A stretch of 40,198 nucleotides of DNA from a virus: the IMG/VR virus record IMGVR_UViG_3300045977_000165, positions 1 through 40,198 of that record; one strand, written 5' to 3'. The notes under the pieces were generated by a model. The model did no database searches, had not been told where the DNA came from, and saw only the letters and a program-made list of their open reading frames with translations. The position numbers and the translations under genes are program-made. Shown in pieces: positions 834 through 34,881 of the stretch. Position 1 is the first letter of the stretch. Each line of letters begins with the position of its first letter.

Positions 834-2684
834 ATGGCCGGCACGTATCAGTTGCAGCCCGACGGTTTGGCGCTCGTGGAGACGCCAGCGGGACCGATGC
901 GCCTGGCGGTCGCAGAGGAGCAGCTGCAGGCGATGGGATACACGCCGGCACCGCTTCCGCCGGAATTGAGCATGGTGGGGCCTAGCTCCGGAGCCTTGGC
1001 CGAAGCCGCACCATTCCGCATGACGGGCATGCTGCCGGAAGAGCCGTTGGTGCTTCGACAGGAGACGGGCATAGACCCGCGGGAGCTTGCAGCGCGGCAG
1101 GGGAATGAACGGCCCGGAGCGAGTGGCACGGTGCGTGGACTCCCCGATCTAACCGAAGGCGGACGCGACGCGCGGGCGCTGGCGGCCGGGGCCCCGGAGA
1201 GTGAGGGCGTGCGTGTCGCACGCGAACAGCGCGAACTCAACGAGACAAAGCGGCGCGTGTCCGATGCAGAAGCCGATCGGCTGCAGGCCGACTTTGACCG
1301 GCGCAACGCAGGCGTGAAGATCATCAGCAAGCAGGAAGAGGCCGAAGCTAAAAAAGCAGCACTACGCGGCGGCGGAGAGATTAGCAACGTTGCGAATGGT
1401 GGCGGTGGTGAGCCGCCACCTGAGCGTCCGCGTTTCGCGCGCGTCGGTGGTAAGGACATTCGCGCGGGCTTCACGCGACAAATCGGCGTGGGGCGCGAGC
1501 TGCTCGACGAAACCGAGGAATCACTCGCCGACGCATCGATCGACAAGAAGCTCGCGGCGCAGGGACTTTCGGAGAAGGAAGCACAGCGTTCCGAACGGAT
1601 GAGCGGGGCACTCGGGCGTCAGATCCGCCGCGAGGAAAACGCGATTCGTGAGCAAGAAGAACGCAACCGGCTCATGAACGAGGATTATGCGCGCCGGCAG
1701 GGAGAGATCGACAAGGAGCGCAAGGCTATCGAAAGCCTCGAGATCAAGCCCGATACCCTTTTCGACCGGGAGGACTGGGCAAAGGTGATCGGTGCAATCG
1801 TCTCGATCGTTGGTTCTTTCGCGCACGGGGCGTCGGGCTCGAAAGGCCCGAGCCCGCTGGACCGTCTGCGCGAGGCTCAAGATCGCTCTGTCGATCTGCA
1901 GGTGCGGCGCCGAGATATGCGCCGACAAAACCTCGTCGCTCGCGAGACCGAGCTCGAGCGCCTCGAAAAGCATTACGGCGATCCGCGCCTTGCGGAGGCG
2001 GAGCTACGAGATCGGCAGCGTGCGCTCGTGCAGGCGTACGGGGAAAAGATGCTCGTAGATGCGGGTGCCACGGACGCGGCCGACAAGCTGCGCATGAAGT
2101 TCGCCATGTGGGACGAGGAGCGCGCGCAGGGACGCCTCGAGCGCGAGCAGCAGCTAGGCGACAAGGTCGTGGAGCAGTGGCAGTACCAGCCCGAGCGCGT
2201 CGTGCAGGTCGGAGGACCGAAACCGCTTTCGGAGGACGCGCGAAAGCGAATGGTGCGTATCAACGGGCGTACGGGCTTCGTGGTGGACGGGTCGGATCGG
2301 CGTCCGGTGCAAGAGGCGGTTTCGAACCTCGAGCACATTGGTGGGCAGCTCAATCGGCTTGAACAGATCGTCAACGATTCGAGCCTGTCGGATATCGAAA
2401 AGCAGCGGCAGATCGAATCCCTCGCGGGCTCGCTCGGGCCGGCGCTTTCGGTCGCGCAGGGTCAAGGCGCGATGAGCGACGATGAGCGCAAGCGCATGGA
2501 GAGCCGACTCGGTGACGCGCAGGCGCTCCTCGGCAGCAAAGAGCGCGCGCGAACGCTGATCAACGAGACGAAGCAGTTTTTCGGAGCCAAGAAAGACTCG
2601 ATCGTCCGGGGCTCGGTGTACGCGGACCCGGACGCGGGGCAGCCGTTCCAAGGTGCACCGTCTCGGAACCGGAGGTACGAATAA
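834..2684 (+). CDS. Large coiled-coil virion protein, probable internal/ejection protein, 616 aa
   Basis: The middle of the protein (about residues 120-310 and 345-460) is very rich in Arg, Glu, Gln and Ala with long heptad-like helices. A short hydrophobic patch, VIGAIVSIVGSFAHGASG, lies near residue 320. The C-terminal part (about 470-590) is again helical. Large helical proteins between the nozzle gene and the fibres are typical ejection proteins of short-tailed phages (T7 gp15/gp16 type), which leave the capsid to build a DNA conduit across the envelope. I see no lytic transglycosylase motif. It begins 7 bases after the previous stop and its TAA overlaps the next ATG (TAATG). Confidence 0.85.
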   Translation: MAGTYQLQPDGLALVETPAGPMRLAVAEEQLQAMGYTPAPLPPELSMVGPSSGALAEAAPFRMTGMLPEEPLVLRQETGIDPRELAARQGNERPGASGTVRGLPDLTEGGRDARALAAGAPESEGVRVAREQRELNETKRRVSDAEADRLQADFDRRNAGVKIISKQEEAEAKKAALRGGGEISNVANGGGGEPPPERPRFARVGGKDIRAGFTRQIGVGRELLDETEESLADASIDKKLAAQGLSEKEAQRSERMSGALGRQIRREENAIREQEERNRLMNEDYARRQGEIDKERKAIESLEIKPDTLFDREDWAKVIGAIVSIVGSFAHGASGSKGPSPLDRLREAQDRSVDLQVRRRDMRRQNLVARETELERLEKHYGDPRLAEAELRDRQRALVQAYGEKMLVDAGATDAADKLRMKFAMWDEERAQGRLEREQQLGDKVVEQWQYQPERVVQVGGPKPLSEDARKRMVRINGRTGFVVDGSDRRPVQEAVSNLEHIGGQLNRLEQIVNDSSLSDIEKQRQIESLAGSLGPALSVAQGQGAMSDDERKRMESRLGDAQALLGSKERARTLINETKQFFGAKKDSIVRGSVYADPDAGQPFQGAPSRNRRYE

Positions 2685-5002
2685 TGGCCGAAGCGGTAGT
2701 CAAAGACGGCCGGGCGTACATGCGCGACGAGTCGGGTGCGGCTTTTTCCGTGCCCGTCGAGGACGTCGACCGGGAGCTCGCGGCGGGTGCGCGGCTCGAG
2801 GCGCCGGACGAGTATTCACACCGGCAGATTCAGCGCGAGCGCTCGACGCTCGGGCAGAAAGCAATCACGGCCGGTGAGGGTGCCCTTCGCGGCGCGACGC
2901 TCGGGCTCGGAACCGCGGCGCTAGCCGAGCTCGGTGGCGAGGAGTACAGGCAGGCGGCCCTCGAGCGAGCGGAGATCAACCCCGTCGAGGCGGGAGTCGG
3001 CGAGTTCGCCGGCATGGTCGCGCCGACGCTCGTAAGCGGCGGCTCGGGGCTCGTTGCGCGCGGCGTCGGTGCCGTTGGTGCGCCGGCGCGGATGGCAGCT
3101 CGAGCGGGCGCGCTCGGTGAACGCGCCGTCGAGGCGGGGGCACGGGCGCTCGGCTACGCGGGCGAGGGCACGCTCGCCCGCGCGCTCGTGAGCGGCGCGA
3201 AGATGGGCACCGGTGGAGCAATCGAGGGCGCCGCGTACGGGCTCGGCTCGTCGCTCGCCGACTCGGCGCTCGAGGGGACCGAATGGACCGCAGAGCGGGC
3301 ACTCTCGGGGCTCGGTGACGGGGCCTTGTACGGGCTGCTCGGGGGCGCTGCCGTCGGTGCGAGCGGCTCGCTCGTGGGGAGCGCCGGCAAGCGCGTTGTT
3401 TCAGCAATGACGGACGGGAAGCCGTTCCGGCAGGCCGTGCGCGAGTTCGCCGACAAGCGCGTGGTGAAGTCGGTGATCGGGAACGACATCAAGACGTTCC
3501 GAAAGCTCACGAACGACGGCGCGAACATGGGCGCGCTGGAAGAGGTGGCGGTCAAGATGCGCGAGCGGCGGATCCCGCTCGACGATCACGACGCCGCGCG
3601 CCGAGCCCTGAACGTCGAGCGGCAGAACGCCGGCAAGGTGATGGGTGACGTCGCGGCCGAGCTCGATACGGCGGGCGTACGCGCGAACATCCCGCAGTTT
3701 CTCGAGCGCGTCGACGCGCGGCTCGCGGACATTCGAGCGTCCGGGGTCTCGGGCAATCGACGCCTAGCCGACCGCGTCGAGCGGCAGCTCGAGCCGTACC
3801 GCCTGGCGGCGGAAGAGGGCCGCGACGTAGCGTTTACGCGGCTTTGGAAGGACTCCACGTTCATTCGGAAGCTCGACGAGGAGGCGGCTTTCAAGCGCAA
3901 CCCGGCGGCCGAGCAGTGGACGAAGCTTTATCAGGATATGCGCACGACGCTCGACGAGGCGGTCGACGGTGCGGCCCCCGATCTCGGGGCGAAGTGGAAG
4001 GCAGCGGAGCGCGACTACGCGCAGTTTTCGACACTGCACGAGGGGGCTCGACGCGAGGGGCAGCGGCGCATCAAAAACCGCTGGACGAGCCCGAGTGACT
4101 ACGGCGTAGGCGGCGTCACTGGCAATCTGATTGGGACTCTGGCGGGGCTCGCAACGGGCTCGATCCCGCTCGGTGCGGTCGCTGGGCTCGTGACCGGCAG
4201 CGTCGCGAGCGCAGCCCACAAGCTCGTTCGGGAGCGGGGCTCGGCAGCGATCTCTCGCCTCGCCGACCGCGTGGCGTCCGTCGAGATGCGCGCAGACACG
4301 GCGGCCCGCGTGCTCGCCGGCCTGGACAACGTGCGAAAGCTTCCGGTGCGTGGGGCGATCGTCGCCGCGACGTCGAAGGATCGCGCCGAACGCTTTCAAC
4401 AGGTGCGCGAAACTGTGCTACGGGCGCAACGCAACCCGGCAACGCTTGCGACGCTCGTCGAGGAGCGGATAGCGCCGCTCGCCGCAGAGCAGCCCGAAGT
4501 GGCTTTCGCCATGGGGCGGCGGATTGCCGAGGACTACGCGTGGCTCGCCACGAAGATGCCGCAGCCGTACTCGACTTTCGGGAAGTCGCTGCAGCCGCAC
4601 CTCGACCCTCCGATCGTTCCGCCCCACGAGCAAGCGAAGATCGTGCGGTACGCGGAAGCGCTCGCCGATCCGCCGAGCGTGCTCGAGGACATGGCGCGCG
4701 GGCAGGTGAACTGGGAAGGGATCGAAGCGCTCAAGGAGCGTCGGCCGGACGTGTGGGAAGGCATGCGATTCATGGTCGCGACGCGCGTCGCCGAGTCGGG
4801 CACGAAGCTCGAATACCGTAAGCGAATCCTCTACTCGCTCGCGTTCGAATTCACGGGAGACCCGATGCTCGAAAGCGTCGGCGATCTCCAAGCTACCGGC
4901 GTCGTGCCACCTGAGCCGTCGTCGGGCAACGTGAACACGAAGGCGCTGGAAACCACGACCGAGCAGCAGACGCCTTACCAGCAGGCGATGGAGGCAGCAT
5001 GA
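2684..5002 (+). CDS. Large virion protein with glycine/alanine-rich hydrophobic segments, probable ejection protein, 772 aa
   Basis: The N-terminus (about residues 60-260) alternates Gly/Ala-rich hydrophobic stretches such as GATLGLGTAALAELGG with amphipathic helices. A long charged helical region spans about 260-470. A second hydrophobic region near 475-510 (GNLIGTLAGLATGSIPLG onward) could insert in a membrane. The C-terminal 250 residues are mixed helical. Size, composition and place fit the largest internal core protein of short-tailed phages, which enters the host envelope during DNA ejection. The function is inferred from context. The ATG overlaps the preceding stop and the TGA overlaps the next ATG (ATGA). 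Confidence 0.85.
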   Translation: MAEAVVKDGRAYMRDESGAAFSVPVEDVDRELAAGARLEAPDEYSHRQIQRERSTLGQKAITAGEGALRGATLGLGTAALAELGGEEYRQAALERAEINPVEAGVGEFAGMVAPTLVSGGSGLVARGVGAVGAPARMAARAGALGERAVEAGARALGYAGEGTLARALVSGAKMGTGGAIEGAAYGLGSSLADSALEGTEWTAERALSGLGDGALYGLLGGAAVGASGSLVGSAGKRVVSAMTDGKPFRQAVREFADKRVVKSVIGNDIKTFRKLTNDGANMGALEEVAVKMRERRIPLDDHDAARRALNVERQNAGKVMGDVAAELDTAGVRANIPQFLERVDARLADIRASGVSGNRRLADRVERQLEPYRLAAEEGRDVAFTRLWKDSTFIRKLDEEAAFKRNPAAEQWTKLYQDMRTTLDEAVDGAAPDLGAKWKAAERDYAQFSTLHEGARREGQRRIKNRWTSPSDYGVGGVTGNLIGTLAGLATGSIPLGAVAGLVTGSVASAAHKLVRERGSAAISRLADRVASVEMRADTAARVLAGLDNVRKLPVRGAIVAATSKDRAERFQQVRETVLRAQRNPATLATLVEERIAPLAAEQPEVAFAMGRRIAEDYAWLATKMPQPYSTFGKSLQPHLDPPIVPPHEQAKIVRYAEALADPPSVLEDMARGQVNWEGIEALKERRPDVWEGMRFMVATRVAESGTKLEYRKRILYSLAFEFTGDPMLESVGDLQATGVVPPEPSSGNVNTKALETTTEQQTPYQQAMEAA

Positions 5003-5400: not shown

Positions 5401-5637
5401 ATGCAACTCAAAGTCGAACGCGATCGAATCCTGCTAGTTCCCGAAAGCGCGCCCGAGGAGCTCTACCTCGAGGCGATTCTCGGTGCGTCGCACGGCGCGC
5501 GGCTCTTGCGCGTCAAGGCGCCGGACGGCTCCGCGGGGGCGTGGGGCGCTCTTGCACTGGCTCCCGCGCCTCTTCCCGCACCGAAGCCCGCCGCACCTCC
5601 CGCACATGAAACCACCACGGAGGCAGCGCCTAGCTAG
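5401..5637 (+). CDS. Small protein of unknown function before the fibre gene, 78 aa
   Basis: The N-terminal half (MQLKVERDRILLVPESAPEE) looks like a compact alpha/beta fold. The C-terminal third is Ala/Pro-rich and probably disordered. The ATG at 5401 is preferred. A GTG at 5389 in the same frame would add four residues and cannot be excluded, since neither has a strong ribosome-binding site. Its TAG overlaps the GTG start of the fibre gene (TAGTG), so the two are probably translated together. Confidence 0.7.
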   Translation: MQLKVERDRILLVPESAPEELYLEAILGASHGARLLRVKAPDGSAGAWGALALAPAPLPAPKPAAPPAHETTTEAAPS

Positions 5638-8069
5638 TGTCTTTCGGCTCCGTTGAACTCAACCCCGGCACCGGGGGATCCAAAGTCGCGGCGGATATCG
5701 TCACGGAAGGCGGAGAGCCGCGCGAATTCCAGCGGATCAAGCTGGTTTGGGGCCCGGAGAGCACGATCACCCCGGTCGACGTCGGGGCGAACGCGCTTCC
5801 GGTGCAGGACGGCGGCAACTCGCTCACGGTAGACACGCCGCAACTGCCGGCCGCGCTCGTGAGCGGGCGGCTCGACGTGAACATCGGCTCGGGCGTCTCG
5901 GGGACAGAATACACGGAGGATGCTGCGGCACCTGCGAACCCGACTGCTCCGGCTGTGATTGTCGTGCGCGACGACGCCCGAGCGGGTGGGCTCACGAGCG
6001 CCGACGGCGACAACGTCGCGCTCCGCGGCACTAACGCTGGCGAGCTCTACGTCAAGCACTTCGATTCTGTTCGCGTGCAAGGCATGGCCGGCGTCGACGC
6101 GGCGCTGTCCGGGAACCCGGTGACCGTCGGCGGGCGCGCTTCGACGGCATCCCCCACGGCCGTCAGCGCCGATGATGAATCGCAGGTCGTTTGGATGAGC
6201 CGACGCGGCGCCGTCCACGTTGCTTTGCGTGACGACGACGGCGATTCCGCGATGGACAACACGCTCGCCGCGGTTCGCGTGACGCAAGTCGCCGCCGCCG
6301 GCACGTCGCTCGCGGACAACACGGCGAACCCGACGGCGCCCTATGTTGGATCGTTCCCTCACTGGTTCGACGGCGCGACGTGGGATCGCGCTCGCGGTGA
6401 TTCCGCCGGGGGCGCGTTCGTCCAAGGCCCGGCGGCGATCGACGCGGTTGTTGCCGGTAACCCGATCATAGCCGGAGCGCGCGCGTCGACGGCCACGCCC
6501 TCGGTGGTCTCGGCTGACGGCGACGTCCAGTCCATTTGGATCGATCGCGTGGGGCGCGTGAAGATCGACTTGAGCACGGCGACGGTGACGATCCCGGTTC
6601 AGGGCAATGCGGCGCACGATGCCGCCGCGAGCTCGTTCGGTAATCCGTTTCTTACGGCGGGGCGCGCCTCGGACGCGGTCCCCTCGGCGGTCTCGGCGGA
6701 CGGGGACATCTCCTATACCTGGCTCGATCGCCGCGGCGCCACCATGGCACGGCTCGTCGATTCGGCGGGTGATTCGGCGATGGACGACACGAACAACTCC
6801 GTTCGAGTCTCGATCGTCTCCGGCAGCGTTTCTGTCAGCGGGACCGTCGATACGGAACTCCCCGCGGCCGGGGCACTTTCCGACGACATGGCGAACCCGA
6901 CGACGCCACTGGTTGGTTCGTGCCTCATGGTTTATGACGGCAACTGGGACCGTGCTGTCGGGACGAGCGGGAGGCTCGCAGTACAAGGAGCCATTGGGAA
7001 CGATGGCGCCCTTGGGTCCTTCAATCCAATCAACGTATCAGGCCGAGCGAGCTCTACGGCGCCGGCCGATGTGAGCGCGAACGATGACGCGGTTTACTTT
7101 TGGCTCACCCGTAAAGGCGCACTGAACGTTTCGCTCCGGGATTCCGCCGGTGACTCGGCGATGGATGACACCAACAACGCGGTTTGGATTAACCCCGTGG
7201 CGGGCTCCCTAATCGGCGTCGTGGGCGTGACGCCGCACGATGGCGCGATGGGCGGAACGCCGGTAGCCGTTTCGGCTTACGCGAGCGACGCCGCTACTAC
7301 GCCCGTTTCAGCGGATGGCGACGCGACGTACGTTTGGGCGAATCGGCGCGGAGCTTTGCAGGTGGGCATTCGCGATGGGTCCGGCGATTCGTGCATGGAC
7401 GACACGAACAACGCGCTACGCGTGAACGTGATCAACCTCGTCGACGAATACGTCGAAGATGCCGCGGCGCCGGCGAACCCCGAGGGTCCGGCGATGATGC
7501 TCCGTCGGCGCGACACGCCCTCGACGAGCGAGGTGAGCGCCGATCTGGACTGGGTCACGGCGAACGGGAATTCCGCCGGTGGGATGTACGTCGAGGTTTT
7601 GGCGGGCGCCACGAAGCTAGGGAACGCGTCGGGGCTCACCGTGCAGGGCGCCGCGGCAACCGATGCGGCGGTCGCCGGGAACCCGCTTTACGTCGGCGGA
7701 CGCGCGTCGGCGGCGGAACCCACGGCGGTGTCGGCGGATGGTGACGCGGTTCCGGAATGGCGTGATCTCAAGGGTCGCGCGATCGTTACGATGCAGTGCG
7801 GAACGTGCTCGTTTGGGTCTGTGTCGGACACGACGACGAGCGCCACGCTCATCTCGGCGAACACGGCACGCAAGGGCGCGACGGTGACGAACACGAGCAC
7901 GGCGGACCTCTACATCAAGTGCGGCTCCACGGCTTCGGCCACGTCGCACAACGCGATCGTGAAGGCCGGCGGGACGTGGGAATGTCCGTTTGGTTACACG
8001 GGCATCATCACTGGCGTGTGGGCGACCGACCCGAACACGGGCGCCGCAAACACGGGGGAGTTCACGTAA
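5637..8069 (+). CDS. Repeat-containing tail or head fibre protein, 810 aa
   Basis: The central part contains about six degenerate copies of a module of about 55-75 residues. Each has the pattern 'G-RAS---P--VSADGD----W--RRGA', usually followed by 'GDSAMDDTNNAVRV'. Copies start near residues 165, 280, 340, 468, 546 and 686. The last 110 residues (from about GSVSDTTTSATLISANTARK) resemble a beta-sandwich common at the end of phage fibres, with 'N-S---LYIKCGS-AS' and 'PFGYTGIITGVW'. I infer a trimeric fibre involved in surface recognition. The start is GTG at 5637, overlapping the preceding TAG. The stop TAA overlaps the ATG of the glycine-rich tip gene. Confidence 0.85.
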   Translation: MSFGSVELNPGTGGSKVAADIVTEGGEPREFQRIKLVWGPESTITPVDVGANALPVQDGGNSLTVDTPQLPAALVSGRLDVNIGSGVSGTEYTEDAAAPANPTAPAVIVVRDDARAGGLTSADGDNVALRGTNAGELYVKHFDSVRVQGMAGVDAALSGNPVTVGGRASTASPTAVSADDESQVVWMSRRGAVHVALRDDDGDSAMDNTLAAVRVTQVAAAGTSLADNTANPTAPYVGSFPHWFDGATWDRARGDSAGGAFVQGPAAIDAVVAGNPIIAGARASTATPSVVSADGDVQSIWIDRVGRVKIDLSTATVTIPVQGNAAHDAAASSFGNPFLTAGRASDAVPSAVSADGDISYTWLDRRGATMARLVDSAGDSAMDDTNNSVRVSIVSGSVSVSGTVDTELPAAGALSDDMANPTTPLVGSCLMVYDGNWDRAVGTSGRLAVQGAIGNDGALGSFNPINVSGRASSTAPADVSANDDAVYFWLTRKGALNVSLRDSAGDSAMDDTNNAVWINPVAGSLIGVVGVTPHDGAMGGTPVAVSAYASDAATTPVSADGDATYVWANRRGALQVGIRDGSGDSCMDDTNNALRVNVINLVDEYVEDAAAPANPEGPAMMLRRRDTPSTSEVSADLDWVTANGNSAGGMYVEVLAGATKLGNASGLTVQGAAATDAAVAGNPLYVGGRASAAEPTAVSADGDAVPEWRDLKGRAIVTMQCGTCSFGSVSDTTTSATLISANTARKGATVTNTSTADLYIKCGSTASATSHNAIVKAGGTWECPFGYTGIITGVWATDPNTGAANTGEFT

Positions 8070-12395: not shown

Positions 12396-12688
12396 GCGCC
12401 CCTTTCGGCGTCGAATCGAAGCACGACGGATTGAAGCGCCGGACTCACCGAGTAGTCGCTACGACTCACGACCATGTCGCGGAGCTCAAGCGCTGCCCGG
12501 AGGCACGGGATCAGACGCACGAGGTCCCGCACGTCACGCGCCGGAAGGGCAACCCGCGCTTTGTCCGGCGTGTCGTCGTCGACGCTGAACGTTTCAAGCT
12601 CGTCGAGCCGGTCCTCGTCGAGCAAGAGGCGCGCGCCGGCGCCATCCCTCGGCACCGGCGCAGACAGCGATCCGAGCTCGTCGGTCAT
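12392..12688 (-). CDS. Small acidic protein of unknown function, 98 aa
   Basis: An acidic N-terminal half (LLLDEDRLDELETFSVDDDT) is followed by a helical segment (ARDVRDLVRLIPCLRAALEL). No motif is recognised. The start ATG at 12688 lies just inside the end of the DUF669-like gene, and the stop overlaps the next start. This is the coupling seen along the whole leftward operon. Confidence 0.7.
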   Translation of the reverse strand: MTDELGSLSAPVPRDGAGARLLLDEDRLDELETFSVDDDTPDKARVALPARDVRDLVRLIPCLRAALELRDMVVSRSDYSVSPALQSVVLRFDAERGA

Positions 12689-13167
12689 ACCGGCGGCCCG
12701 TCGCCGCTCGGCGCGCTCGCGCCAGGCGGGAAGCTCGTGTCGCCTTCGGCCGCCTTCGACTCCTTGCGCGCGAGCAACGCGCCTTTCAGGCGCTCGTTCA
12801 ACGCGGCGACCCCGCCGGCGTCCAGGGTCTCGTTCATCTTGGCACCGCCGCCGATCCTGTTGACCCAACGGACGCGAACGAACTCCCGTCCGTCTTCGCC
12901 CTGCTCGAGGCCGACGTCGAGCTCGACTTCCTTCGTGCCGAAGCCTTTCATCTCGACGAGCGAAGCCCCGTCCCACCCGCAATGCTCGAGGCTTTCGAGC
13001 GTGCGGTCGGCCGTCTTGTCGGTGAAGTGCCCGTACCAATAGACCTTCTTATTCTTGTGCGGGCCGTCCTCGGTGATCGCGAAGGTGACGAGCACCTGCT
13101 CGTTCCCCTTCTTGCTCTTCCCGAACTGCCGATCGATCGCCTTCGCCTTGTACTTTCCAGCTTCCAT
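12685..13167 (-). CDS. DUF669-like candidate single-stranded DNA-binding protein, 160 aa
   Basis: The N-terminal 110 residues (EAGKYKAKAIDRQFGKSKKG, then NEQVLVTFAITEDG, KKVYWYGHFTDKT, and LEHCGWDG) match the pattern I associate with DUF669, a phage family encoded beside RecA-like ATPases and RecB-like nucleases and thought to bind ssDNA. The C-terminal 50 residues are Ala/Gly/Pro-rich and end acidic-poor. The ATG at 13167 overlaps the TAA of the nuclease-ATPase gene (TAATG), so the two are expressed together. I infer a role in phage recombination or replication. Confidence 0.75.
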   Translation of the reverse strand: MEAGKYKAKAIDRQFGKSKKGNEQVLVTFAITEDGPHKNKKVYWYGHFTDKTADRTLESLEHCGWDGASLVEMKGFGTKEVELDVGLEQGEDGREFVRVRWVNRIGGGAKMNETLDAGGVAALNERLKGALLARKESKAAEGDTSFPPGASAPSGDGPPV

Positions 13168-14789
13168 TACGCTGCCTCCGTGCTCTGAGCTGCCGTCGTC
13201 GTCGTGCTCTGCACCTTGCCGCGGAGCCAGTCCGCGAGCTGCGAGAGCTTCCGTGCATCCTTGCCGCAACGCTCGCGGCTTTCGGCCGCTTGCTTCTTGA
13301 CCGCTTCGTCCGTTACGAGCGCGAGCAGCGCGTCGACGTCCTTTGCGATGGCGTCGGCGTCGGCCGGCTGCCCCGTGCGCGCCGCGCGCTCGAACTCTGC
13401 CCAGTCGAGCGGCATCTCGAACGGGAGCCCGTACCGGTTTTTAGCGTCGAACGCCGGGCGGTGCTCGGTGTACATGACGCGCGAGCCGTCCCCGAGCACG
13501 CGGGTTTTCCCCTCCTTCTCGTGGGTGTACGTCTTGTAATTCGCGAAGAGCACCGCCTTCGGCCACTCCTTCAACAGCGCCGCCGCTTTCTCGTTCAGTT
13601 TCAAGCGATACCGGTCGTAGTCGTCGCCGGCCGGGTTGTTGAACATCTTCACCTGAGCGTGCGCGAGCAGGACGACGTGCATTCCCTTCGCGTGGATTGC
13701 GTTCAGCTTCTCGATGAACGTGCGCCAGTGGTCGAGCGCGTACTGAAAGCCCTTCCCATACCCGAAGTCCTCAATGCTTCCCTTCTTGTTCGCGCGGCAC
13801 ACCTCCCGGTGGATCAGCGCCTCGAGCGCGTCGGCGGTGTCGAGCACGAAGGTTTGCCGATCGTGCTTTTCGTTCAGCAGCGTATCGATCGCTTCGATGC
13901 ACTCCGCCCACGTGTCGGGCTTCGGGAAGCGGGCGACGTCGAGCTCGCCGGTCCCGACGTCCGCGTCGAGGAAGATCGGCGCGGGGGCGCCGGCACCGAA
14001 GGTGCTCTTTCCGATACCTTCGGTGCCGAAAAGCAGGACGCGAAACGGCTCCTCGAGCTTGCCCTTCGTCACGTTTTTCATAGTCATTCGTCCCATGGGT
14101 CTCTTCTCCTTTTCCTTCTCGAACGCTTCGAAAGCGTTGCAAACAGTGCGGCCCGGACAGTAGAGATCGCGACAGTGCGCGCCCGGCTTCGGCGCGTTGG
14201 GCCCGTGGAGCACGGTGTCCATGAGCACGACGAGGCGGTGTCGGTCGGCTTCGACGTCCGCGGGCGTCGCTTCGTGACGGTCGACGTCCACCGACCCGTC
14301 GGCGGCGACGTAGTGAAAGGCGCGCTTGCGCGTTCCGGTGACGACGTTCCCGGCGCGGAGCTGCCACGCTTCGGCGGCCGGGCGCAGCCGGCGCCCCGTC
14401 TTGTAGTCCACGATCTCTTCGTCGCCGACGACGTCGATCGTCATGGAGATCCCCACTTCGTCGCCGTACTGCCGATCGATGTGTTGACCGATGACCGCCA
14501 CGGTGCCGTCGGGCTTGATTCGAAAGGCCACCTCTTCGCGGTACGTCGCTGGCAGGAGCGGGCGCCCCTTCTCGAGCCAGCCCGTGAACCGCTCTTGCGT
14601 GAGGTACTCTTCGTGCGCGTCCGCGAGCGGAGCGTGCCCACCGGCGGCGGCGTCCGCGTGGAACGGGTTGCCCATGATCTCCGCCGAGCGGCCCATGCGG
14701 TCGGGGGGAAGCGACAGCGTGAGCCAGTGCGTGCACTCCATTCCGAGATCGAGCTTCGACCCCGTGAGCAGCCCGAGGGGATTCACCAC
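13167..14789 (-). CDS. Fusion of Cas4/AddB-like Fe-S nuclease and RecA-like (AAA_24-type) ATPase, 540 aa
   Basis: Residues 1-225 look like a PD-(D/E)XK exonuclease: E85/E86, D119 in SMTIDVVGDEE, and D128-Y-K130 in VDYKTG. C19 near the N-terminus and C206, C211 and C217 near the end of the domain have the one-plus-three layout of the Fe-S cluster in AddB and Cas4. Residues 232-540 are a P-loop ATPase with Walker A GTEGIGKST (255-263) and Walker B-like TFVLDTADALE with D317. Such ATPases usually occur as separate phage genes. An in-frame ATG at 14096 (residue 232) has AAGGAG nine bases upstream, so a free ATPase may also be made. The start is taken as GTG 14789; a second GTG follows directly. 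Confidence 0.82.
   Translation of the reverse strand: MVNPLGLLTGSKLDLGMECTHWLTLSLPPDRMGRSAEIMGNPFHADAAAGGHAPLADAHEEYLTQERFTGWLEKGRPLLPATYREEVAFRIKPDGTVAVIGQHIDRQYGDEVGISMTIDVVGDEEIVDYKTGRRLRPAAEAWQLRAGNVVTGTRKRAFHYVAADGSVDVDRHEATPADVEADRHRLVVLMDTVLHGPNAPKPGAHCRDLYCPGRTVCNAFEAFEKEKEKRPMGRMTMKNVTKGKLEEPFRVLLFGTEGIGKSTFGAGAPAPIFLDADVGTGELDVARFPKPDTWAECIEAIDTLLNEKHDRQTFVLDTADALEALIHREVCRANKKGSIEDFGYGKGFQYALDHWRTFIEKLNAIHAKGMHVVLLAHAQVKMFNNPAGDDYDRYRLKLNEKAAALLKEWPKAVLFANYKTYTHEKEGKTRVLGDGSRVMYTEHRPAFDAKNRYGLPFEMPLDWAEFERAARTGQPADADAIAKDVDALLALVTDEAVKKQAAESRERCGKDARKLSQLADWLRGKVQSTTTTAAQSTEAA
14097..14111 (-). promoter_or_regulatory. Internal ribosome-binding site for a possible free ATPase product
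   Basis: On the minus strand AAGGAG (14111-14106) precedes the in-frame ATG at 14096-14094 by nine bases, exactly where the ATPase domain begins (MGRMTMKNVTKGKLEEPF). The linker upstream is Glu/Lys-rich, so part of the purine tract is explained by coding. The ATPase-only product would be 309 residues. Confidence 0.5.
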
Positions 14790-15088
14790 GGCGACTCCGC
14801 CGGGAGGACGTCCGCGGGGAGCCCCGGCACGGGGTCGGTTTCGCGCTTCTCGGGGCTACTCGCGCGTTCGGCCTGGTCAAGCACGCGGTCGATCGCTTCG
14901 GGCACCGTGGGCTCGTAGGCGACCGCGTAGCAGGCACCAGGCGCCCCGAGATCGAGCTTCAACGCGATCGCGTGGTCGTCTTCGTTGAAGTGCATCTCGA
15001 CGCTGCAGCGCCGTCCGTTCGCGCGCGCGTGCGCCTGGAAGTCCAAAAGCCTATTGATTGCGTTGACGTCGCTGGGTGTCAGTTGCAT
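14783..15088 (-). CDS. Small protein of unknown function upstream of the nuclease-ATPase, 101 aa
   Basis: The start ATG at 15088 has a strong AAGGAG seven bases upstream. The fold looks alpha/beta (NAINRLLDFQAHARANGRRC, then VEMHFNEDDHAIALKLDLG), ending in a disordered Pro-rich tail. The stop overlaps the GTG start of the next gene by seven bases. No family is recognised. It may be an accessory factor of the recombination module. Confidence 0.78.
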   Translation of the reverse strand: MQLTPSDVNAINRLLDFQAHARANGRRCSVEMHFNEDDHAIALKLDLGAPGACYAVAYEPTVPEAIDRVLDQAERASSPEKRETDPVPGLPADVLPAESPW

Positions 15089-18193: not shown

Positions 18194-18543
18194 GCGATGC
18201 CCTCGACTGCCTCACCCCTGCCGACGTCGTTGCGTACCTGCAGTGCGGAAACCGCGAGGCTTGCGCGCTCATGCGCGAGCTCGGCGGGTGGCGCTGGAAA
18301 GACTCTTGGCGGATCAGAAAGGCGACCTTCGAAGCATGGCTAAAAAAGCAAGAGACGGTCTCTTTAGACGCGGCGGCGTCTGGTGGATTCGAACCGACCC
18401 GATCGAACGCAAAGCCAAAACCACCGGGTGCCGTGATCTTGCGGCTGCCCGTGGGTACCGCGCGGAGCGCGAACGCCTCGCGAAAGATCCGACATACGCA
18501 GCCGCGCAGGCGGAAAACCTCCAAGCAGCCTGCAATCGGTTGA
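18190..18543 (+). CDS. Excisionase-like winged-helix protein, 117 aa, overlapping int
   Basis: Residues 8-55 fit the MerR/Xis-like HTH_17 pattern: CLTPADVVAYLQCGNREACA, then a helix, a W-containing wing, and the closing I-KATFEAWLKKQ. These small proteins bend attachment-site DNA and steer the integrase towards excision. The frame continues 62 residues past the domain, 208 bases into the integrase gene in another frame. That tail is basic and low-complexity and may be incidental. The start GTG at 18190 has GGAGG five bases upstream. Confidence 0.7.
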   Translation: MSDALDCLTPADVVAYLQCGNREACALMRELGGWRWKDSWRIRKATFEAWLKKQETVSLDAAASGGFEPTRSNAKPKPPGAVILRLPVGTARSANASRKIRHTQPRRRKTSKQPAIG

Positions 18544-19622
18544 GCGAGACGCGTGCCGGGCTCGGGAAGTCGAGCGAGTACCACGAGACGAAGCTCGGGC
18601 ACTGGCTGCGCCTGTTCGGGGACGACGCTGCGCTCGCGCGTGTGGGGAGCCCCGAAGGCTTCGACGAGTACGTGCGGCAGCGACGGACCGAGGAAGCGTC
18701 AGACCACACGATCACGAAGGAAGTGAGCGTCATGCTCACGGTGCTACGGATGGCGAAGCGCGTCGGGCGGTACACGGGAGATCTCGAGGTGCTTCGACCC
18801 TTCGACCTTTCCGCCGGCTACGTGCCACGGACGCGGGCACTCACGGCTGCCGAGCTCGGGGCATTGCTCGGTGAGCTCGCCCCGGAGCGGGGCGCCTTCG
18901 TGGCGTTGTGCGTCGGGCTCGGCGTCCGGAAGGGCGAGGCGTTCGGGTTGCTGCCGGAGCACGTCGACGTCGAGGCTGGGCTCGTCCACGTCGCCGGCAC
19001 GAAGACTGCCGGCGCTCGGCGCACCCTGCCGATTCTTCCCCCGTTCCGTGGGCTCGTGGCGGCGGCAGCGGCACACCTGCCGTTGAAGCCGTGGTCACGC
19101 GGAAACTACCTGCGCGACCTGAAAGCGGCGTGCACGCGTGCGAAGATCGACCCCTGCACCCCGAACGACCTTCGTCGGACGCACGCGACCTTACTCCGGA
19201 ACGCCGGGGTAGATCGCGACGTCGTGCGTGGGCTGCTCGGTCACACGGCCGAGTCGGTCATGCTCGAGGCGGTGTACGACGCGCCGAAACCGCACGAGCT
19301 CGCAGCTCGAGCGGGTGAACTTGTAACAATGACGCGACAGCTCGAGGAGGCGATCGGCGAAAAGCTGAGTGGGCGGGCGGGGTTTCGAACCCCGGACATC
19401 CGGCTTGTAAGGCCCAACCAGAACGAGCACGACGAGGAGTCTCGTGCACTTACGACGCCGAGTGAGGACGGGCAAGGTCAGAGCGAGGCGGCGGACGTAA
19501 CAGAGACGCGACACTCGGCGGCGGCGCACGCGCTCGCGCTCGCAGCCGAAGGGGTGCTGAACCGCCGCGTGTTCATGGTACCGGGGGTCCGGTACCGCGG
19601 GAAGGCGGCGCGCCGTGCGTAA
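18336..19622 (+). CDS. int: Tyrosine integrase with attP inside its 3' end, 428 aa
   Basis: The catalytic core runs from about residue 155 to 330. R198 lies in VRKGEAFGL, a Lys candidate in GTKTAGARRT, R280 in NDLRRTHATLL, H303 in LLGHTAES, and the nucleophile Y314 in LEAVYDAP. The first His of the usual HxxR is replaced by N277. The N-terminal 150 residues contain the SAM-like core-binding domain and probably arm-binding strands. Residues about 346-361 are encoded by a tRNA-derived segment, and the last 65 residues are low-complexity. The ATG at 18336 lies inside the excisionase-like frame. It mediates insertion at a tRNA-Val gene. Confidence 0.88.
   Translation: MAKKARDGLFRRGGVWWIRTDPIERKAKTTGCRDLAAARGYRAERERLAKDPTYAAAQAENLQAACNRLSETRAGLGKSSEYHETKLGHWLRLFGDDAALARVGSPEGFDEYVRQRRTEEASDHTITKEVSVMLTVLRMAKRVGRYTGDLEVLRPFDLSAGYVPRTRALTAAELGALLGELAPERGAFVALCVGLGVRKGEAFGLLPEHVDVEAGLVHVAGTKTAGARRTLPILPPFRGLVAAAAAHLPLKPWSRGNYLRDLKAACTRAKIDPCTPNDLRRTHATLLRNAGVDRDVVRGLLGHTAESVMLEAVYDAPKPHELAARAGELVTMTRQLEEAIGEKLSGRAGFRTPDIRLVRPNQNEHDEESRALTTPSEDGQGQSEAADVTETRHSAAAHALALAAEGVLNRRVFMVPGVRYRGKAARRA
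19371..19416 (-). other. attP: Probable attP core: 3' part of a tRNA-Val(TAC) gene
   Basis: On the minus strand this segment reads as the anticodon loop (CTTACAA, anticodon TAC), the 3' anticodon strand, the variable loop, a perfect T-arm (CGGGG-TTCGAAA-CCCCG) and the 3' acceptor strand CCCGCCC with discriminator A. The 5' half of a tRNA is absent: the anticodon stem loses pairing at its outer end, and no GGGCGGG acceptor strand lies at the expected place. That is the signature of a phage attachment core, which restores the host tRNA after insertion. It lies entirely inside the int coding sequence. CCA is not encoded here. Confidence 0.8.
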
Positions 19623-20304: not shown

Positions 20305-20769
20305 ATGGCATCGAAGATCAACGACGTAAAGATCGAACGGGTTACCCGGAAGCTCCGCGTGGAGCTCACGACCGAAGAGGTGGCGAAGCGTGCCGACCGG
20401 TGCGCGCATCTCGTGGCAGAACGCTCCTCGAAAAAGGAGGCGCAGAAGAGCGCGACCGCGCACGCGAACGCGGAGATCAAGCAGCTCGACGCGGAGCTTT
20501 CGTCGCTCTCGAACGAGGTGCGGGATAAGGCGAAGTACTCCGACGTCGACTGCGAGCGCCGGTACAACTACCGGCTCGGGCGCGTCGAGGAGGTTCGGCT
20601 CGACACCAAGGCGGTGGTGAGCGAACGCGCCATGACGGGCGCCGAGCGGCAGCTCGAAAACGGGCTGAAGGAGCCGAAGGGAAAGAAGGGCGACGAGAAG
20701 GAGCCCGAGCTCCCGACGCGCAAGAAGAGCGGACGCAAAAAGGCCGGCGCTGCCGAGGTGTCGCCGTGA
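20305..20769 (+). CDS. Coiled-coil early protein, 154 aa
   Basis: Residues about 18-75 form a long amphipathic helix (VELTTEEVAKRADRCAHLVA, onward to KQLDAELSSLSNEVRDKAK). A beta segment with RRYNYRLGRVEEVRLDT follows. The last 40 residues are Lys/Glu-rich and disordered. The ATG at 20305 has GGAAAGGAA upstream. No family is recognised. The layout is like small phage proteins of replication clusters. Confidence 0.75.
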   Translation: MASKINDVKIERVTRKLRVELTTEEVAKRADRCAHLVAERSSKKEAQKSATAHANAEIKQLDAELSSLSNEVRDKAKYSDVDCERRYNYRLGRVEEVRLDTKAVVSERAMTGAERQLENGLKEPKGKKGDEKEPELPTRKKSGRKKAGAAEVSP

Positions 20770-21461
20770 GCACGCCGCAGATTGACGAGGCTCGCCTCGA
20801 GCGGATCAACAAGCGCGAGCTGCGTTCTGGATCGCACCCCGCGCCTCCGAACGGCACGGTCGAAGCGTGCGTCATGGAGGCAGTCGCCTACGTCGCGGGC
20901 GAGACGTGGAGCGACCATCCGACGTGCGCGTGCCCCGTGCTCGCGGCGTTCATGCGGGCTTGGAACGATGGGCTGCCATCGGACGCCGACCGAACGCGCT
21001 TGCTTCGGCCGCTGATTCCGAAGCTCGTCGGGTCGAAGTCGACGCCTGAAGTCGAGCGGCGCCGCGCTGACATGGCGGCGGATTGGTTCATACGCGTTTA
21101 CACCCCGACATGGCTCGGGATGGTGGACGGGCTCAAACCCGAGGCGGAAAAGCTTCGCGCGCTCGCGCCGCTTTCCGACCGCGCTTCTTTCGAAGCGGCG
21201 GTGCCCGTCGTGAAAGAAGCACAGAGATCGAGTGCCGCCGCGAGGGACGCCGCGAGGGACGCCGCGAGGGACGCCGCGAGGGACGCCGCGTGGGCCGCCG
21301 CGTGGGACGCCGCGAGTGCCGCCGCGAGTGCCGCCGCGAGGGACGCCGCGAGTGCCGCCGCGAAAAAGAAGTTCGAGCCCATTACGCTCGATCTCCAACA
21401 GTCGGCGCTCGAGCTCGTGGACCGCATGCTCGCCATCACTCCCGAAACGCTTGCGGCCTGA
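20766..21461 (+). CDS. Early protein with an Ala-Ala-Arg-Asp tetrapeptide tandem repeat, 231 aa
   Basis: Residues 1-155 appear folded and helical, with conserved-looking Cys-rich (HPTCACPVLAAF) and Trp-rich parts. Residues about 158-197 consist of ten tetrapeptides AARD, AAWA, AAWD or AASA, encoded by a 12-bp tandem DNA repeat. A helical end follows. Such Ala-rich tetrad repeats occur in uncharacterised phage and bacterial proteins. They would form a long helix whose length varies by slippage. No function is assigned. Confidence 0.78.
   Translation: MSTPQIDEARLERINKRELRSGSHPAPPNGTVEACVMEAVAYVAGETWSDHPTCACPVLAAFMRAWNDGLPSDADRTRLLRPLIPKLVGSKSTPEVERRRADMAADWFIRVYTPTWLGMVDGLKPEAEKLRALAPLSDRASFEAAVPVVKEAQRSSAAARDAARDAARDAARDAAWAAAWDAASAAASAAARDAASAAAKKKFEPITLDLQQSALELVDRMLAITPETLAA
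21237..21356 (+). repeat. Ten-unit 12-bp tandem repeat inside a gene
   Basis: The unit is GCCGCGAGGGAC with variants GCCGCGTGGGCC, GCCGCGTGGGAC and GCCGCGAGTGCC. The first four units are identical, which points to recent expansion. A length that is a multiple of three keeps the frame after slippage. The peptide is a periodic Ala-rich helix. Confidence 0.95.
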
Positions 21462-23207: not shown

Positions 23208-24572
23208 GTGTCCGACGTCCCTCGGCACGACCCGCACGCCGAGGCGGCCTGCCTTTCGGCGGCGTTGCTCTCGACCGACGCGGCCCTCGAGCTCGTCGAG
23301 CTGCTCGACCCCGAGGAGTACTACCTCGACGCGCACCGGTGCGTTCACGAGGCGATGCGCACGATCGCCGCACGCGGTGAGCCCGTCGATATCGTCACCG
23401 TGGCGAACGAGCTCCGCGCGTCGAACAAGCTCGAGCGGGTCGGCGGGCAGGCTTTCCTCGCGCGTCTCTCGGATGAGACCCCGGCGATTGCGCACCTGCC
23501 GAAGCACGCGGCGATCGTGCGCTCGTGGCACCGAGCTCGGCGGGCTACGGTCACGTGGGCACAGCTTCTCGCCGAAGGGCGTACGGCCGAGCTCCCCGAC
23601 GTCGACGCGTGGCTCGAGTCCTGCGAGCAGCGCGCGTACCTCGCGACCGAGGCACGACGCGAGGGTACCGACGGGCCAACGACGTACGCCGAGCTCGTGC
23701 CCGGCGCGTTCGAGCGCATTCGCGACAGCGGCCCCTCGACGCTCGGGCGCCCGACGGGCTTTTACGCCCTCGACACGCACGCCCACGGCATCTCCGCCGG
23801 GCAGCTGATCTACGTCGCCGGCCGCCCCGGCCACGGGAAAACCGCGTGGGCACAGCAGCTCGCCGAGCAGATCGCAATGGCCGATCCGAGCGCCGGCACG
23901 GTGTTCGAGTCCATGGAGATGACCAAAGAGGACCTCACGTTTCGGTCGCTCGCACGGTGGGCCAAGCTCCCGTTCAACGCCATCAAGTCACGGCAGCTAG
24001 ACCGCGACGGGTGGCACCGTCTCGCGCAGGCCGCCGGCGACCTGGTCAAGTGTCGGATCGCCGTCGAAGAGGCATCCTCCCTCACGCCCTTGCGGCTTCG
24101 TCGTCGCGTGCGCCGGCAGTACGCCGAGCTCCGGGCGAAGCACCCCGACACGAAGCTAGCGCTCGTCGTCGTGGACTACGTGCAGCTCATGACCGGCGAC
24201 GACGTAGCGAAGGGCACGACGCGCGCCGTCGAGCTCGGGATGATATCCCGGTCGCTCAAAAACCTTGCGAAGGAACTGCAATGCACCGTCGTCGTGCTCT
24301 CGCAGCTCGCCCGAAAGCAGCGCGGCGCCGCCAAGCGCCCCGAGCTCGACGAGCTTCGCGACTCTGGCGCGCTCGAGGCCGACGCTGATCTAGTGCTCGC
24401 CCTGCACCGCGAGGACGAATACCGCAAGCCCGGCGCCGAGCCGAACGGGAAGTGTGAGGTGCTGATCTTGAAGGGCCGTAACTGCGGCACGGGTGCTCAT
24501 GAGCTCGCGTTCGACGGGCCGAGCTCTCGTTTCGAAAACCTCGAACACCAGCAGGAGATGTACGCATCATGA
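23208..24572 (+). CDS. dnaB: Replicative DNA helicase, DnaB family, 454 aa
   Basis: The N-terminal DnaB domain (about residues 5-105) has the typical start HDPHAEAACLSAALLS and VDIVTVANELR. After a linker, the RecA-like motor carries Walker A GRPGHGKTAW (205-214), the FESMEMTKEDL motif, Walker B LVVVDYVQLMTG with D323, VVVLSQLARK (sensor), and DELRDSGALEADAD. Length and motif order are standard for DnaB. It unwinds the fork at the phage origin. The GTG start at 23208 directly follows the previous stop. Confidence 0.93.
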   Translation: MSDVPRHDPHAEAACLSAALLSTDAALELVELLDPEEYYLDAHRCVHEAMRTIAARGEPVDIVTVANELRASNKLERVGGQAFLARLSDETPAIAHLPKHAAIVRSWHRARRATVTWAQLLAEGRTAELPDVDAWLESCEQRAYLATEARREGTDGPTTYAELVPGAFERIRDSGPSTLGRPTGFYALDTHAHGISAGQLIYVAGRPGHGKTAWAQQLAEQIAMADPSAGTVFESMEMTKEDLTFRSLARWAKLPFNAIKSRQLDRDGWHRLAQAAGDLVKCRIAVEEASSLTPLRLRRRVRRQYAELRAKHPDTKLALVVVDYVQLMTGDDVAKGTTRAVELGMISRSLKNLAKELQCTVVVLSQLARKQRGAAKRPELDELRDSGALEADADLVLALHREDEYRKPGAEPNGKCEVLILKGRNCGTGAHELAFDGPSSRFENLEHQQEMYAS

Positions 24573-26068: not shown

Positions 26069-26257
26069 ATGACCGGGCTTGCCCGTCCTGCGCGGTGGAT
26101 GCGGCCCCCGAGCGGCTCGCTGGTGGACTACCAGTCGGCGCCCGAGCGCAAGCGGCCCCGGGTGGAAGCGGCGTCAGAGGGGCGCGGGTTTCGCAATCCG
26201 GGGCGGCGAGCGGTGCGCGACGCGGAGCGAGCACGCGAGCGGAGGATCTGGCCGTGA
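26069..26257 (+). CDS. Small Arg-rich protein at the start of the packaging operon, 62 aa
   Basis: The start ATG 26069 is followed by a Pro/Arg-rich sequence (WMRPPSGSLVDYQSAPERKR), ending in a basic helix (RRAVRDAERARERRIWP). The TGA overlaps the GTG start of the next gene (GTGA), and that gene's ribosome-binding site lies inside this one, which supports translation. A DNA-binding role in packaging is only a guess. Confidence 0.5.
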   Translation: MTGLARPARWMRPPSGSLVDYQSAPERKRPRVEAASEGRGFRNPGRRAVRDAERARERRIWP

Positions 26258-27147
26258 CCGGCGCGCGCTTCTTTGCGAAGCAGAACGAGCGGCGGCGCGA
26301 AGCGGGCTTGCGCGAGATGCGCGAGCGACGAGCGGCGGCGCGGCTTCTCTGCGAGGCGTGCACGCTGCCGGGCACCGAGTCGCTCACGATCGGATTGCTC
26401 GAGGCGCGACCATGCGACGTGTGCGGCGTCCTCGTCTCGCCGGAGGACAATTACACGTTCCTGCGGGGAGCGTTGGACGCAGGCGGGGCCCATACCCCTG
26501 CCGCACCCGGTTCGAATCCGGGCCCCGCGACCACGGCGAAGGTGTACACGGGCGACGCGGCATCGCTCACGCGCGACAAGCGGCCCTGGTACGACTACGG
26601 GAAAGACACGGGGCGGCGGCTGCGCGTGAAGGGACTCGTCGACGTCGATTCGCTGCCCGTGGCGAAGCCCGAGCCCGACCCGAACGGGCCGGACCCGCGC
26701 GAGGTGGAGGCGCTGCACCGGCAGAGCCAGGAGGCGATGGCCGAGGGCGACGACCGGAAGCTCGGCAAGCTCTACGAAGACTTGCTCGACGCGCTCCATT
26801 CGAACGATCTGCCGACGGACGAGGACCCGATCACGAAGGCGCGCTTTGACCTTCGTGCTCGCGAGCTCGAGGCGGCGCTCGGTGCAGAGCTTTCCGAGCT
26901 CGGGCGGGCCCGGCGGTGGGGCGTCGGGTACCGGCTTTCGGGCGCGTCTGGGCAAGTCGTGCTCGTGGTCGGAGTGCTCGACCGCGCGAGCGGTGCCGAG
27001 TGGCAGATCACGGTGGATCAGCGGGCGCTTTACAACGCAGTGAGGCGTGCCGGGGCAGAGATGCGGATGGCCGCGCGCGAGATCGCGACTCGCGTGCGTG
27101 ACCACGTCGACAAGGCGCGAGCAGGAGCAGTCATCGGGGTTGCGTGA
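26254..27147 (+). CDS. Zinc-ribbon protein of the packaging operon, small-terminase candidate, 297 aa (may be two genes)
   Basis: GTG 26254 has GGAGGA seven bases upstream. The N-terminus is a basic helix followed by two CxxC pairs, C33/C36 and C54/C57, a probable zinc ribbon. Residues about 70-94 are low-complexity because the DNA also forms a tRNA-like structure. After that comes a distinct region (KVYTGDAASLTRDKRPWYDYG onward) with long helices and a beta part near residues 225-260. No stop separates the halves. If the tRNA is real, the second half may be a separate gene starting at GTG 26542. Its place two genes before the large terminase makes a DNA-recognition role in packaging plausible. 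Confidence 0.65.
   Translation: MTGARFFAKQNERRREAGLREMRERRAAARLLCEACTLPGTESLTIGLLEARPCDVCGVLVSPEDNYTFLRGALDAGGAHTPAAPGSNPGPATTAKVYTGDAASLTRDKRPWYDYGKDTGRRLRVKGLVDVDSLPVAKPEPDPNGPDPREVEALHRQSQEAMAEGDDRKLGKLYEDLLDALHSNDLPTDEDPITKARFDLRARELEAALGAELSELGRARRWGVGYRLSGASGQVVLVVGVLDRASGAEWQITVDQRALYNAVRRAGAEMRMAAREIATRVRDHVDKARAGAVIGVA
26462..26533 (+). tRNA. Divergent tRNA-Met-like gene (anticodon CAT) with encoded CCA, inside an open frame
   Basis: A cloverleaf can be drawn. The acceptor TGCGGGG pairs with CCCCGCG (one G-U). A three-pair D-stem GCG/CGC has loop TTGGA. The anticodon stem is CGGGG/CCCTG (one G-U) with loop CCCATAC, anticodon CAT. The variable loop is CCGCA, the T-arm is perfect (CCCGG-TTCGAAT-CCGGG), discriminator A, then CCA. 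Odd points are the short D-arm, A at position 8 and C at position 33 in place of U. It could be a working phage tRNA, a tRNA-like packaging or RNA signal, or a decayed tRNA. Confidence 0.5.
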
Positions 27148-27443
27148 GAAAACGCCGGTGCGATCGGTACGCGGAGGAGAAGCGGCGCTTCGGAGTGAAC
27201 GAAGCGCTGAACGCGCTTCCGCCGGATCCGCACGACGACTCGCGGCTCGATCGCGCGCTCACGCTCGGGCTTCGCGGCGAGAATTCGGGGTACCACGGGT
27301 GCAACTGGTGCCACGGTCTGCCGCACCGGCGGAACGATCCGAAGTGTCGCGGGTGCGGTGAGCCGTACGCGCCGGAAGTCGTGGCGCTCGAGGTGCCTGC
27401 GCTCCGAAGCAGCTACCCGCACGAGGAGATCCACGGGTGCTAA
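27144..27443 (+). CDS. Four-cysteine zinc-finger protein before the large terminase, 99 aa
   Basis: C53/C56 (CNWCHG) and C68/C71 (CRGCG) form a probable zinc site. The first 45 residues are basic and helical. It overlaps the genes on both sides (GTGA at the start, seven bases at the end), so it is translated with the large terminase. Small zinc proteins are often encoded near terminases. A DNA-binding role is inferred. Confidence 0.78.
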   Translation: MRKRRCDRYAEEKRRFGVNEALNALPPDPHDDSRLDRALTLGLRGENSGYHGCNWCHGLPHRRNDPKCRGCGEPYAPEVVALEVPALRSSYPHEEIHGC

Positions 27444-28954: not shown

Positions 28955-28957
28955 GCC

Positions 28958-29209
28958 ATGGACGTCGACGAAACCCTAACCCTGCTGCGAAAACACGGTG
29001 TCGCGTCGGCGACGTTCGACGGCGGCGGGTGCCTGCTGTCGGTGCAGTTTGCCTATGTCTCGCCACCGTCGCCCGAGGGCGCGACGCCGAAAGCGGGATC
29101 GATCGAAGAGGACGGGCCGCCGCTTTTCCGCACGGCGATGCACACGGCGGCGAGCGTTCTGCAGGGAAAGCTCACGAGCATGAGGGGCGAGGAGACGGCC
29201 GATGCTTGA
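28958..29209 (+). CDS. Small protein between terminase and portal, 83 aa
   Basis: GAGGTGAGCC precedes the ATG. The N-terminal 40 residues are alpha/beta (DETLTLLRKHGVASATFDGG), followed by a Pro-rich linker and a helical end. It overlaps the portal start by eight bases. No family is recognised. Head assembly is its likely setting. Confidence 0.75.
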   Translation: MDVDETLTLLRKHGVASATFDGGGCLLSVQFAYVSPPSPEGATPKAGSIEEDGPPLFRTAMHTAASVLQGKLTSMRGEETADA

Positions 29210-31139: not shown

Positions 31140-31151
31140 GAGTGAACGACC

Positions 31152-32357: not shown

Positions 32358-32416
32358 ACAGCCAGTGAGCTCGGCACCCGCGGCGCGCGTCGGAGATCGC
32401 GCTCCCACGGGTTCCG

Positions 32417-33670: not shown

Positions 33671-33677
33671 GGACGTC

Positions 33678-34220
33678 ATGGGTCAACCTGCAAACGTAAT
33701 CAAGAAGATCGGCGGAGAGCTCGCACAGGACGAGGGCGGCGTCGGAACGGCAAACCGGCTTTTCGACTTCGCTGTTTCCTTCCAAAAACCCGCGGCGGAC
33801 GGCGCGGCGGGTACTGCCACGGCGTCGACGAAGGGCAACGGTGTGAACGGAATCAACGGGTCGTTTTCGAACCCGTTCGACTTCGATCTCGCGGTCGTTG
33901 GTTTCCTCATTTCGCCGAACGCGGCGTTGGTCGCTGATAACGCGAACTACGCAACGATCGCCGTGGAAACGGACGACGCGGCGGACGGGGCGCCCGCGGC
34001 GGCTCTGTCGGTCACCACGCAAGTGGCGGCGCCGGGCTCGAACACGTGGGCAACGGACGTTTGCCAGCGTGTCGATCTCTCGACGGTCGGGACGAAGGGC
34101 GTGCTCGGAACGGCGCAACGGCTCCGCCCCGGCGCGAACCTCTTCCTGTCGATCGCGAAGACGGGTACCGGCGTGGTCGTGCCCATCTGCAACATCACCG
34201 TTCTCCTTCGGAGGCTGTAA
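33678..34220 (+). CDS. Head structural/decoration protein candidate, 180 aa
   Basis: It is beta-rich, soluble and Gly/Ala/Thr-rich (VNGINGSFSNPFDFDLAVVG, later TGTGVVVPICNITVLLRRL). It directly follows the capsid gene with GAGGACGTC before the ATG. Decoration or head-stabilising proteins usually stand here. The role is inferred from position. Confidence 0.75.
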   Translation: MGQPANVIKKIGGELAQDEGGVGTANRLFDFAVSFQKPAADGAAGTATASTKGNGVNGINGSFSNPFDFDLAVVGFLISPNAALVADNANYATIAVETDDAADGAPAAALSVTTQVAAPGSNTWATDVCQRVDLSTVGTKGVLGTAQRLRPGANLFLSIAKTGTGVVVPICNITVLLRRL

Positions 34221-34222
34221 TC

Positions 34223-34621: not shown

Positions 34622-34881
34622 TGGCGCTCGAGGACTTCGCAGGAAAGCCGGAATCGGACGCCGAAGGCGACGATCTGCCGGTCACCGAGGGCGGGAGCCC
34701 GATGGCGGCCAAGCGCCGGGCGGTGCAACGCATGTTCGCGGCAGCGAAAAAGGGCGACTGGAAAGCGGCCGCCCATGCTTTCGCCGACGCGTTTGCAGCC
34801 TGCGAAGAGTACGAGGACGACGACGACGACGAGGAGTCGGGCGGCCTGTACGACGACGAGGGCGACGACGAGGAGGCGTAG
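34621..34881 (+). CDS. Small protein with acidic C-terminal tail, 86 aa
   Basis: The central helix (AAKRRAVQRMFAAAKKGDWK, then AAAHAFADAFAACEEY) is followed by a tail that is almost only Asp, Glu and Gly. Short helical proteins with acidic tails are frequent in phage head modules. The role is unknown. The ATG overlaps the previous stop. Confidence 0.78.
   Translation: MALEDFAGKPESDAEGDDLPVTEGGSPMAAKRRAVQRMFAAAKKGDWKAAAHAFADAFAACEEYEDDDDDEESGGLYDDEGDDEEA

Follow-up and report, generated by a model that had tools for sequence, protein, structure and literature searches.

The question raised by this locus is whether one phage gene encodes an exonuclease joined to its annealing protein and, from an internal start, the annealing protein alone. 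The window (the whole stretch analysed, a 40,198-base IMG/VR virus record; the fusion is known from this one metagenomic contig) was read on the minus strand, where the frame from 14789 to 13167 ran through 540 codons without interruption (Table 1). A sequence-only reading had placed here one open frame with a nuclease followed by an ATPase, and codon usage agreed: the fused frame was favoured in almost all 20-codon blocks, the one over the junction (residues 221–240) among them, and the only dip was at residues 201–220 (cysteine motif). The earliest GTG is at 14789; the next, at 14786, would give 539 residues and lies in a four-base overlap (GTGA) with the stop of the ORF upstream, through which the start could be coupled to that ORF; the GTG start sits in a strongly structured stretch of 74–75% GC. 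The linked pattern DYKTG...CX5C...GxGK occurred once in the window, in 0 of 100 shuffles and, being narrow, matched no other IMG/VR contig. The ORF is predicted to join an intact PD-(D/E)XK nuclease with one plus three cysteines to a full Sak4/AAA_24 ATPase. A 542-aa plus-strand frame (13290–14918) was rejected on codon usage as an antisense shadow of GC-rich coding DNA.

Table 1. Features of the fused ORF and its neighbours in the window (window coordinates).
Feature	Position	Strand	Remarks
101-aa ORF, function not assigned	14783..15088	minus	upstream of fused ORF; stop overlaps GTG 14786 (GTGA)
Fused exonuclease-Sak4 ORF	13167..14789	minus	540 codons + stop; likely start GTG 14789 or 14786
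Predicted PD-(D/E)XK nuclease domain and linker, residues 1-231	14097..14789	minus	PF12705; alignment with 13 relatives; AlphaFold; PDB fold matches
Cys19, first candidate Fe-S ligand	14733..14735	minus	nearly invariant in alignment A5
Cys206-X4-Cys211-X5-Cys217 motif (PGxHCxxLYCPxxxxC)	14139..14174	minus	all three invariant in A5
Shine-Dalgarno-like AAGGAG	14106..14111	minus	nine bases before internal ATG
Internal ATG (Met232), start of putative free 309-aa Sak4	14094..14096	minus	aligns with L008 Sak4 start
Predicted Sak4/AAA_24 RecA-like ATPase domain and C-terminal region	13170..14096	minus	PF13479; phrog_124
Walker A GTEGIGKST, residues 255-263	14001..14027	minus	G255, G258, G260, K261 invariant
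Walker B region TFVLDTADALE	13821..13853	minus	D317, E323 invariant
DUF669 single-strand-binding protein	12685..13167	minus	PF05037, E 1.3e-6; phrog_378; TAATG overlap with sak4 stop

Both halves gave Pfam matches. PDDEXK_1 (PF12705) matched residues 67–218 (E 7e-5; 23.4 bits against a cut-off of 22, marginal alone; relatives L370 and L373 score 31 and 48 bits); DUF2800 (PF10926) gave no match of the window protein at E ≤ 1 in the profile search, and L370 and L373 do match it. No relatives of the N-terminal half were obtained by tblastn against phages and plasmids or by peptide scans of IMG/VR; they were retrieved with DNA patterns derived from the motifs DYKTG-CPX4C and PGxHCxxLYCP (L370 scored best, at E 4e-12, followed by L373, L375, L354 and others). 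In alignment A5 (14 rows, the window nuclease and 13 relatives) C206, C211, C217, D119, K130, G132 and Q143 were invariant and C19, H44, E86 and D128 nearly so; the catalytic motif residues (H44, E86, D119, D128-x-K130, Q143) are kept, and C19, C206, C211 and C217 form the one-plus-three layout of Fe–S nucleases of the Cas4/AddB type, as the sequence-only reading had it. These four cysteines would bind a 4Fe–4S cluster. The first of the two C-terminal cysteine spacings is X2 in Cas4 and X4 in the window nuclease.

The AlphaFold model of the nuclease half built with A5 reached pLDDT 83.4 and pTM 0.82 (single sequence: pLDDT 33). Foldseek matched it to ACE1/Cas4 (E 7e-6), RecE, LHK-Exo and MGME1, the matches to Cas4, RecE and MGME1 lying at E 7e-6 to 1e-3 with modest TM (0.33–0.50); matches in BFVD were phage PD-(D/E)XK proteins, RecB-like exonucleases and DUF2800 proteins, and the nuclease profile picked up AdnB/AdnA, ACE1 and MGME1 among PDB sequences. 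The AddB/Cas4-like identity suggested at the outset is borne out by these matches; the half is assigned, from its sequence, to the phage family PDDEXK_1, close to DUF2800, and its nuclease activity and resection polarity are predictions of that assignment. The window copy is without the C-terminal tail of its relatives (roughly 60–150 residues), which was counted against the preferred reading, and it has also lost several residues past the Gln143 motif. Such losses would fit a degenerate by-product, the nuclease being inactive or irrelevant and Sak4 alone functional; this was judged quite improbable, the catalytic residues and cysteines being kept, the fold predicted well and the coding signal persisting through the domain.

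The second half gave AAA_24 (PF13479) at residues 249–453 (Pfam; E 5e-51 to 2e-50) and the Sak4-like phrog_124 (PHROGs; E 6e-48), with the P-loop where it had been noticed; the proposed AAA_24 ATPase is thereby narrowed to a predicted Sak4-type single-strand annealing protein, for which annealing activity would be expected. The neighbour taken for a DUF669-like ssDNA-binding protein was recognized as such by Pfam and PHROGs; an SSB gene of this kind often, though not always, accompanies sak4. The Sak4 of HK620 anneals in an ATP-dependent manner and is stimulated by its own SSB, a DUF669 protein (PMC5928155); with this and other Sak4 proteins (PF13479/phrog_124) the window shares the RecA-like AAA_24 core beside a DUF669 SSB, but these are separate proteins, whereas the window Sak4 has an exonuclease joined at its N-terminus. 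Reported neighbours of sak4 in Firmicutes include SSB/DUF669, with sbcC as a further one in some streptococcal phages (PMC8093625); in BCJA1c and Javan59 the gene upstream of sak4 is SMC-like.

The gene company of both halves was compared in relatives, and the recombination context that had been proposed was recovered. Nuclease relatives adjoin RecT (L356, L375, L373; L371 weakly, below cut-off), ERF (L369, L372) or AAA_24 plus SSB genes (L354), and L177 has a Sak4 gene with the nuclease downstream; by context, therefore, the nuclease is an exonuclease that pairs with annealases of several unrelated families. In these loci the nuclease family stays the same, most of its members carrying PGxHCxxLYCP, and the annealase partner changes. 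For Sak4, 218 distinct relatives, drawn from records of viruses, phages and genomes, were surveyed for split and fused forms, and 0 of the 218 were fused. At 16 loci with more than 1100 bases upstream, sak4 has a PD-(D/E)XK gene next to it on the same strand, as well as a DUF669 gene; these make up nearly all the closest Sak4 relatives whose upstream sequence is long enough, with L177 as the exception. Nuclease and ATPase are thus normally separate neighbours, as the sequence-only reading had held. The order in the closest relatives is nuclease upstream, Sak4, DUF669 downstream, all separate genes, so that the window has the usual exonuclease–annealase–SSB cassette with the first two proteins fused.

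Among all fetched loci, a single ORF matching a nuclease profile (A5 or A6, which would miss fusions to other nuclease families) as well as a Sak4 profile was seen only in the window (locus L003). The nuclease of the split Sak4 loci (alignment A6) is another PDDEXK_1 subfamily, and this was counted against the preferred reading; the window nuclease matched it with a profile–profile probability of 91% (E 1.2e-6), and no direct homology to the L008-type nuclease was seen by sequence, the relation appearing only in the profile–profile comparison. Nuclease–ATPase fusions occur in defence systems, and the gene could on that general ground be a defence or counter-defence effector instead of a recombinase; the tight operon with a DUF669 SSB and the location of relatives of both halves in phage recombination modules make this very improbable. 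Long N-terminal extensions of the Sak4 frames L011, L164, L163, L027, L233 and L169 were rejected as fusions (arginine/proline-rich, without nuclease similarity); L011 and L169 have their nuclease in an ORF of its own upstream. YqaJ-type nuclease genes adjoin sak4 on the opposite strand in L012, L018, L023 and L211.

The internal ATG at 14096 and the AAGGAG nine bases upstream of it were confirmed at the positions first noticed. The stand-alone Sak4 of L008 starts MSNRMSLKN, and the window reads MGRMTMKN at Met232. The separate sak4 starts of split relatives L010, L014 and L017 are preceded by AAAGAGGAG; the window counterpart of this site is AAAAGGAG-N9-ATG, in phase 0. In L017 the AAAGAGGAG bases encode Lys-Glu-Glu near the nuclease end, and the nuclease stops in an ATGA overlap. 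A Shine–Dalgarno match of at least 6 bases was found at 4 of the 155 in-frame internal ATGs of the predicted genes of the window, ATG 14096 included. It looks as if the ribosome-binding site of a formerly separate sak4 has been retained in the gene. All 5 split pairs compared are in phase 2 and the window is in phase 0; a small phase change in an ATGA-type overlap would create the fusion.

The same phase difference (5 of 5 split pairs), together with a +1 frame that would end in ATGA like split relatives L008 and L017 and the dependence on a single metagenomic contig, would also fit an assembly or sequencing indel, by which two true genes had become an artefactual fusion; the nuclease would then stop at a TGA that overlaps the Met235 ATG. 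This was considered improbable: at the junction, codon usage strongly favours the uninterrupted frame (+5.2, compared with −21.1 for the one that ends in the ATGA), and no long homopolymer lies there.

Of the 108 positions scored along the ORF, the four with the least structure fall at residues 226–241, the lowest-GC part of the ORF (about 50% GC against 66% around); shuffles assigned the low structure to base composition, not to arrangement. The internal ATG itself is predicted to be paired, and AAGGAG is also plain Lys-Glu codons in a charged linker; these two points, like the compositional origin of the low structure, were counted against the preferred reading. With the low structure following from composition, these points favour the view that only the fusion is made and that AAGGAG and the ATG are incidental codons of the charged Lys-Glu linker, where AAG GAG is likely in any case. 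That view was held to be unlikely, though the weightiest of the alternatives, since the ATG lies at the position of the stand-alone sak4 start in L008, its ribosome-binding-site-like context is shared with other relatives, and so long a Shine–Dalgarno match is found at so few internal ATGs. The Shine–Dalgarno-like site, the low-structure stretch and the structured, high-GC GTG start suggest production of free Sak4, perhaps in larger amounts than the fusion. Because the second protein's old ribosome-binding signal seems to persist, the annealing part may also be made alone, and a second product, the 309-residue Sak4 from the internal ATG, is plausible.

The preferred reading (probability roughly 0.68) is a phage recombination cassette with exonuclease and single-strand annealing protein (SSAP) in one polypeptide, in which the sak4 ribosome-binding site seems to have been kept and free Sak4 is probably also made. 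According to it, the N-terminal PD-(D/E)XK domain would resect double-strand ends to single-stranded DNA; the tethered Sak4 ATPase, directly loaded, would bind the resected strand, so that the fusion would deliver it in cis from nuclease to annealase; small numbers of fusion molecules sitting at DNA ends could seed a larger pool of free Sak4, spreading with the DUF669 SSB; and Sak4, helped by this adjacent SSB, would anneal the bound strand. A more specific version is offered tentatively, at somewhat below even odds: a single-gene, two-product recombinase, made up of an exonuclease–annealase fusion and free annealase from an in-frame internal start, with resection and loading physically coupled and the product ratio set by translation.

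Lambda Exo/Beta, RecE/RecT and YqaJ/RecT are, like the window, exonuclease plus annealase cassettes; the window differs in that both components are one polypeptide, the nuclease has a cysteine motif like that of Cas4 and the annealase is of the ATPase type. PF12705/DUF2800-like phage exonucleases (L354, L356, L370, L371, L373, L375) share the catalytic and cysteine motifs and the SSAP neighbours, whereas the window copy has no C-terminal tail and runs on into Sak4. UvrD-Cas4-like proteins, AddB and AdnB also have a Cas4-like PD-(D/E)XK nuclease fused to a recombination or repair ATPase, but theirs is an SF1 helicase and that of the window an annealase; of the published systems retrieved, the UvrD-Cas4-like fusions came closest (PMC5704561). 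Searches of the open-access literature turned up no fused Exo-Sak4; all parts are known, and the joined form with a kept ribosome-binding-like site appears to be new among what was searchable. Phage Exo-SSAP pairs drive phage mosaicism and underlie recombineering, and the hand-over of ssDNA from exonuclease to annealase has so far been studied with separate proteins; a natural fusion, if true, would offer, ready for use, a system for testing loading in cis, and might serve as a single-gene tool for recombineering in GC-rich bacteria.

Elsewhere in the window, a PHROGs scan of ten long genes (regions 834–5002 and 27437–40083 among them) gave matches at E ≤ 0.001 for 2 of 10, an integrase (18333–19619) and a DnaB-like helicase (23208–24569); with the other eight unmatched at this threshold, the phage looks very divergent. 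A tRNA-Met (CAT) at 26462–26533 (+) lies inside the long predicted ORF 26095–27147, which makes the start of this ORF doubtful. ORF 20766–21461 (+) has an Ala-Ala-Arg-Asp repeat (AARDAARDAARD...) near its end; the 810-aa ORF 5637–8069 (+) has repeated degenerate units with VSADGD and RRG motifs and a tail-protein-like look. In relative L375, a short distance downstream of the nuclease, ORF 1223–1552 (−) is a nearly pure Gly-Tyr-Gly-Asp/Ser repeat.
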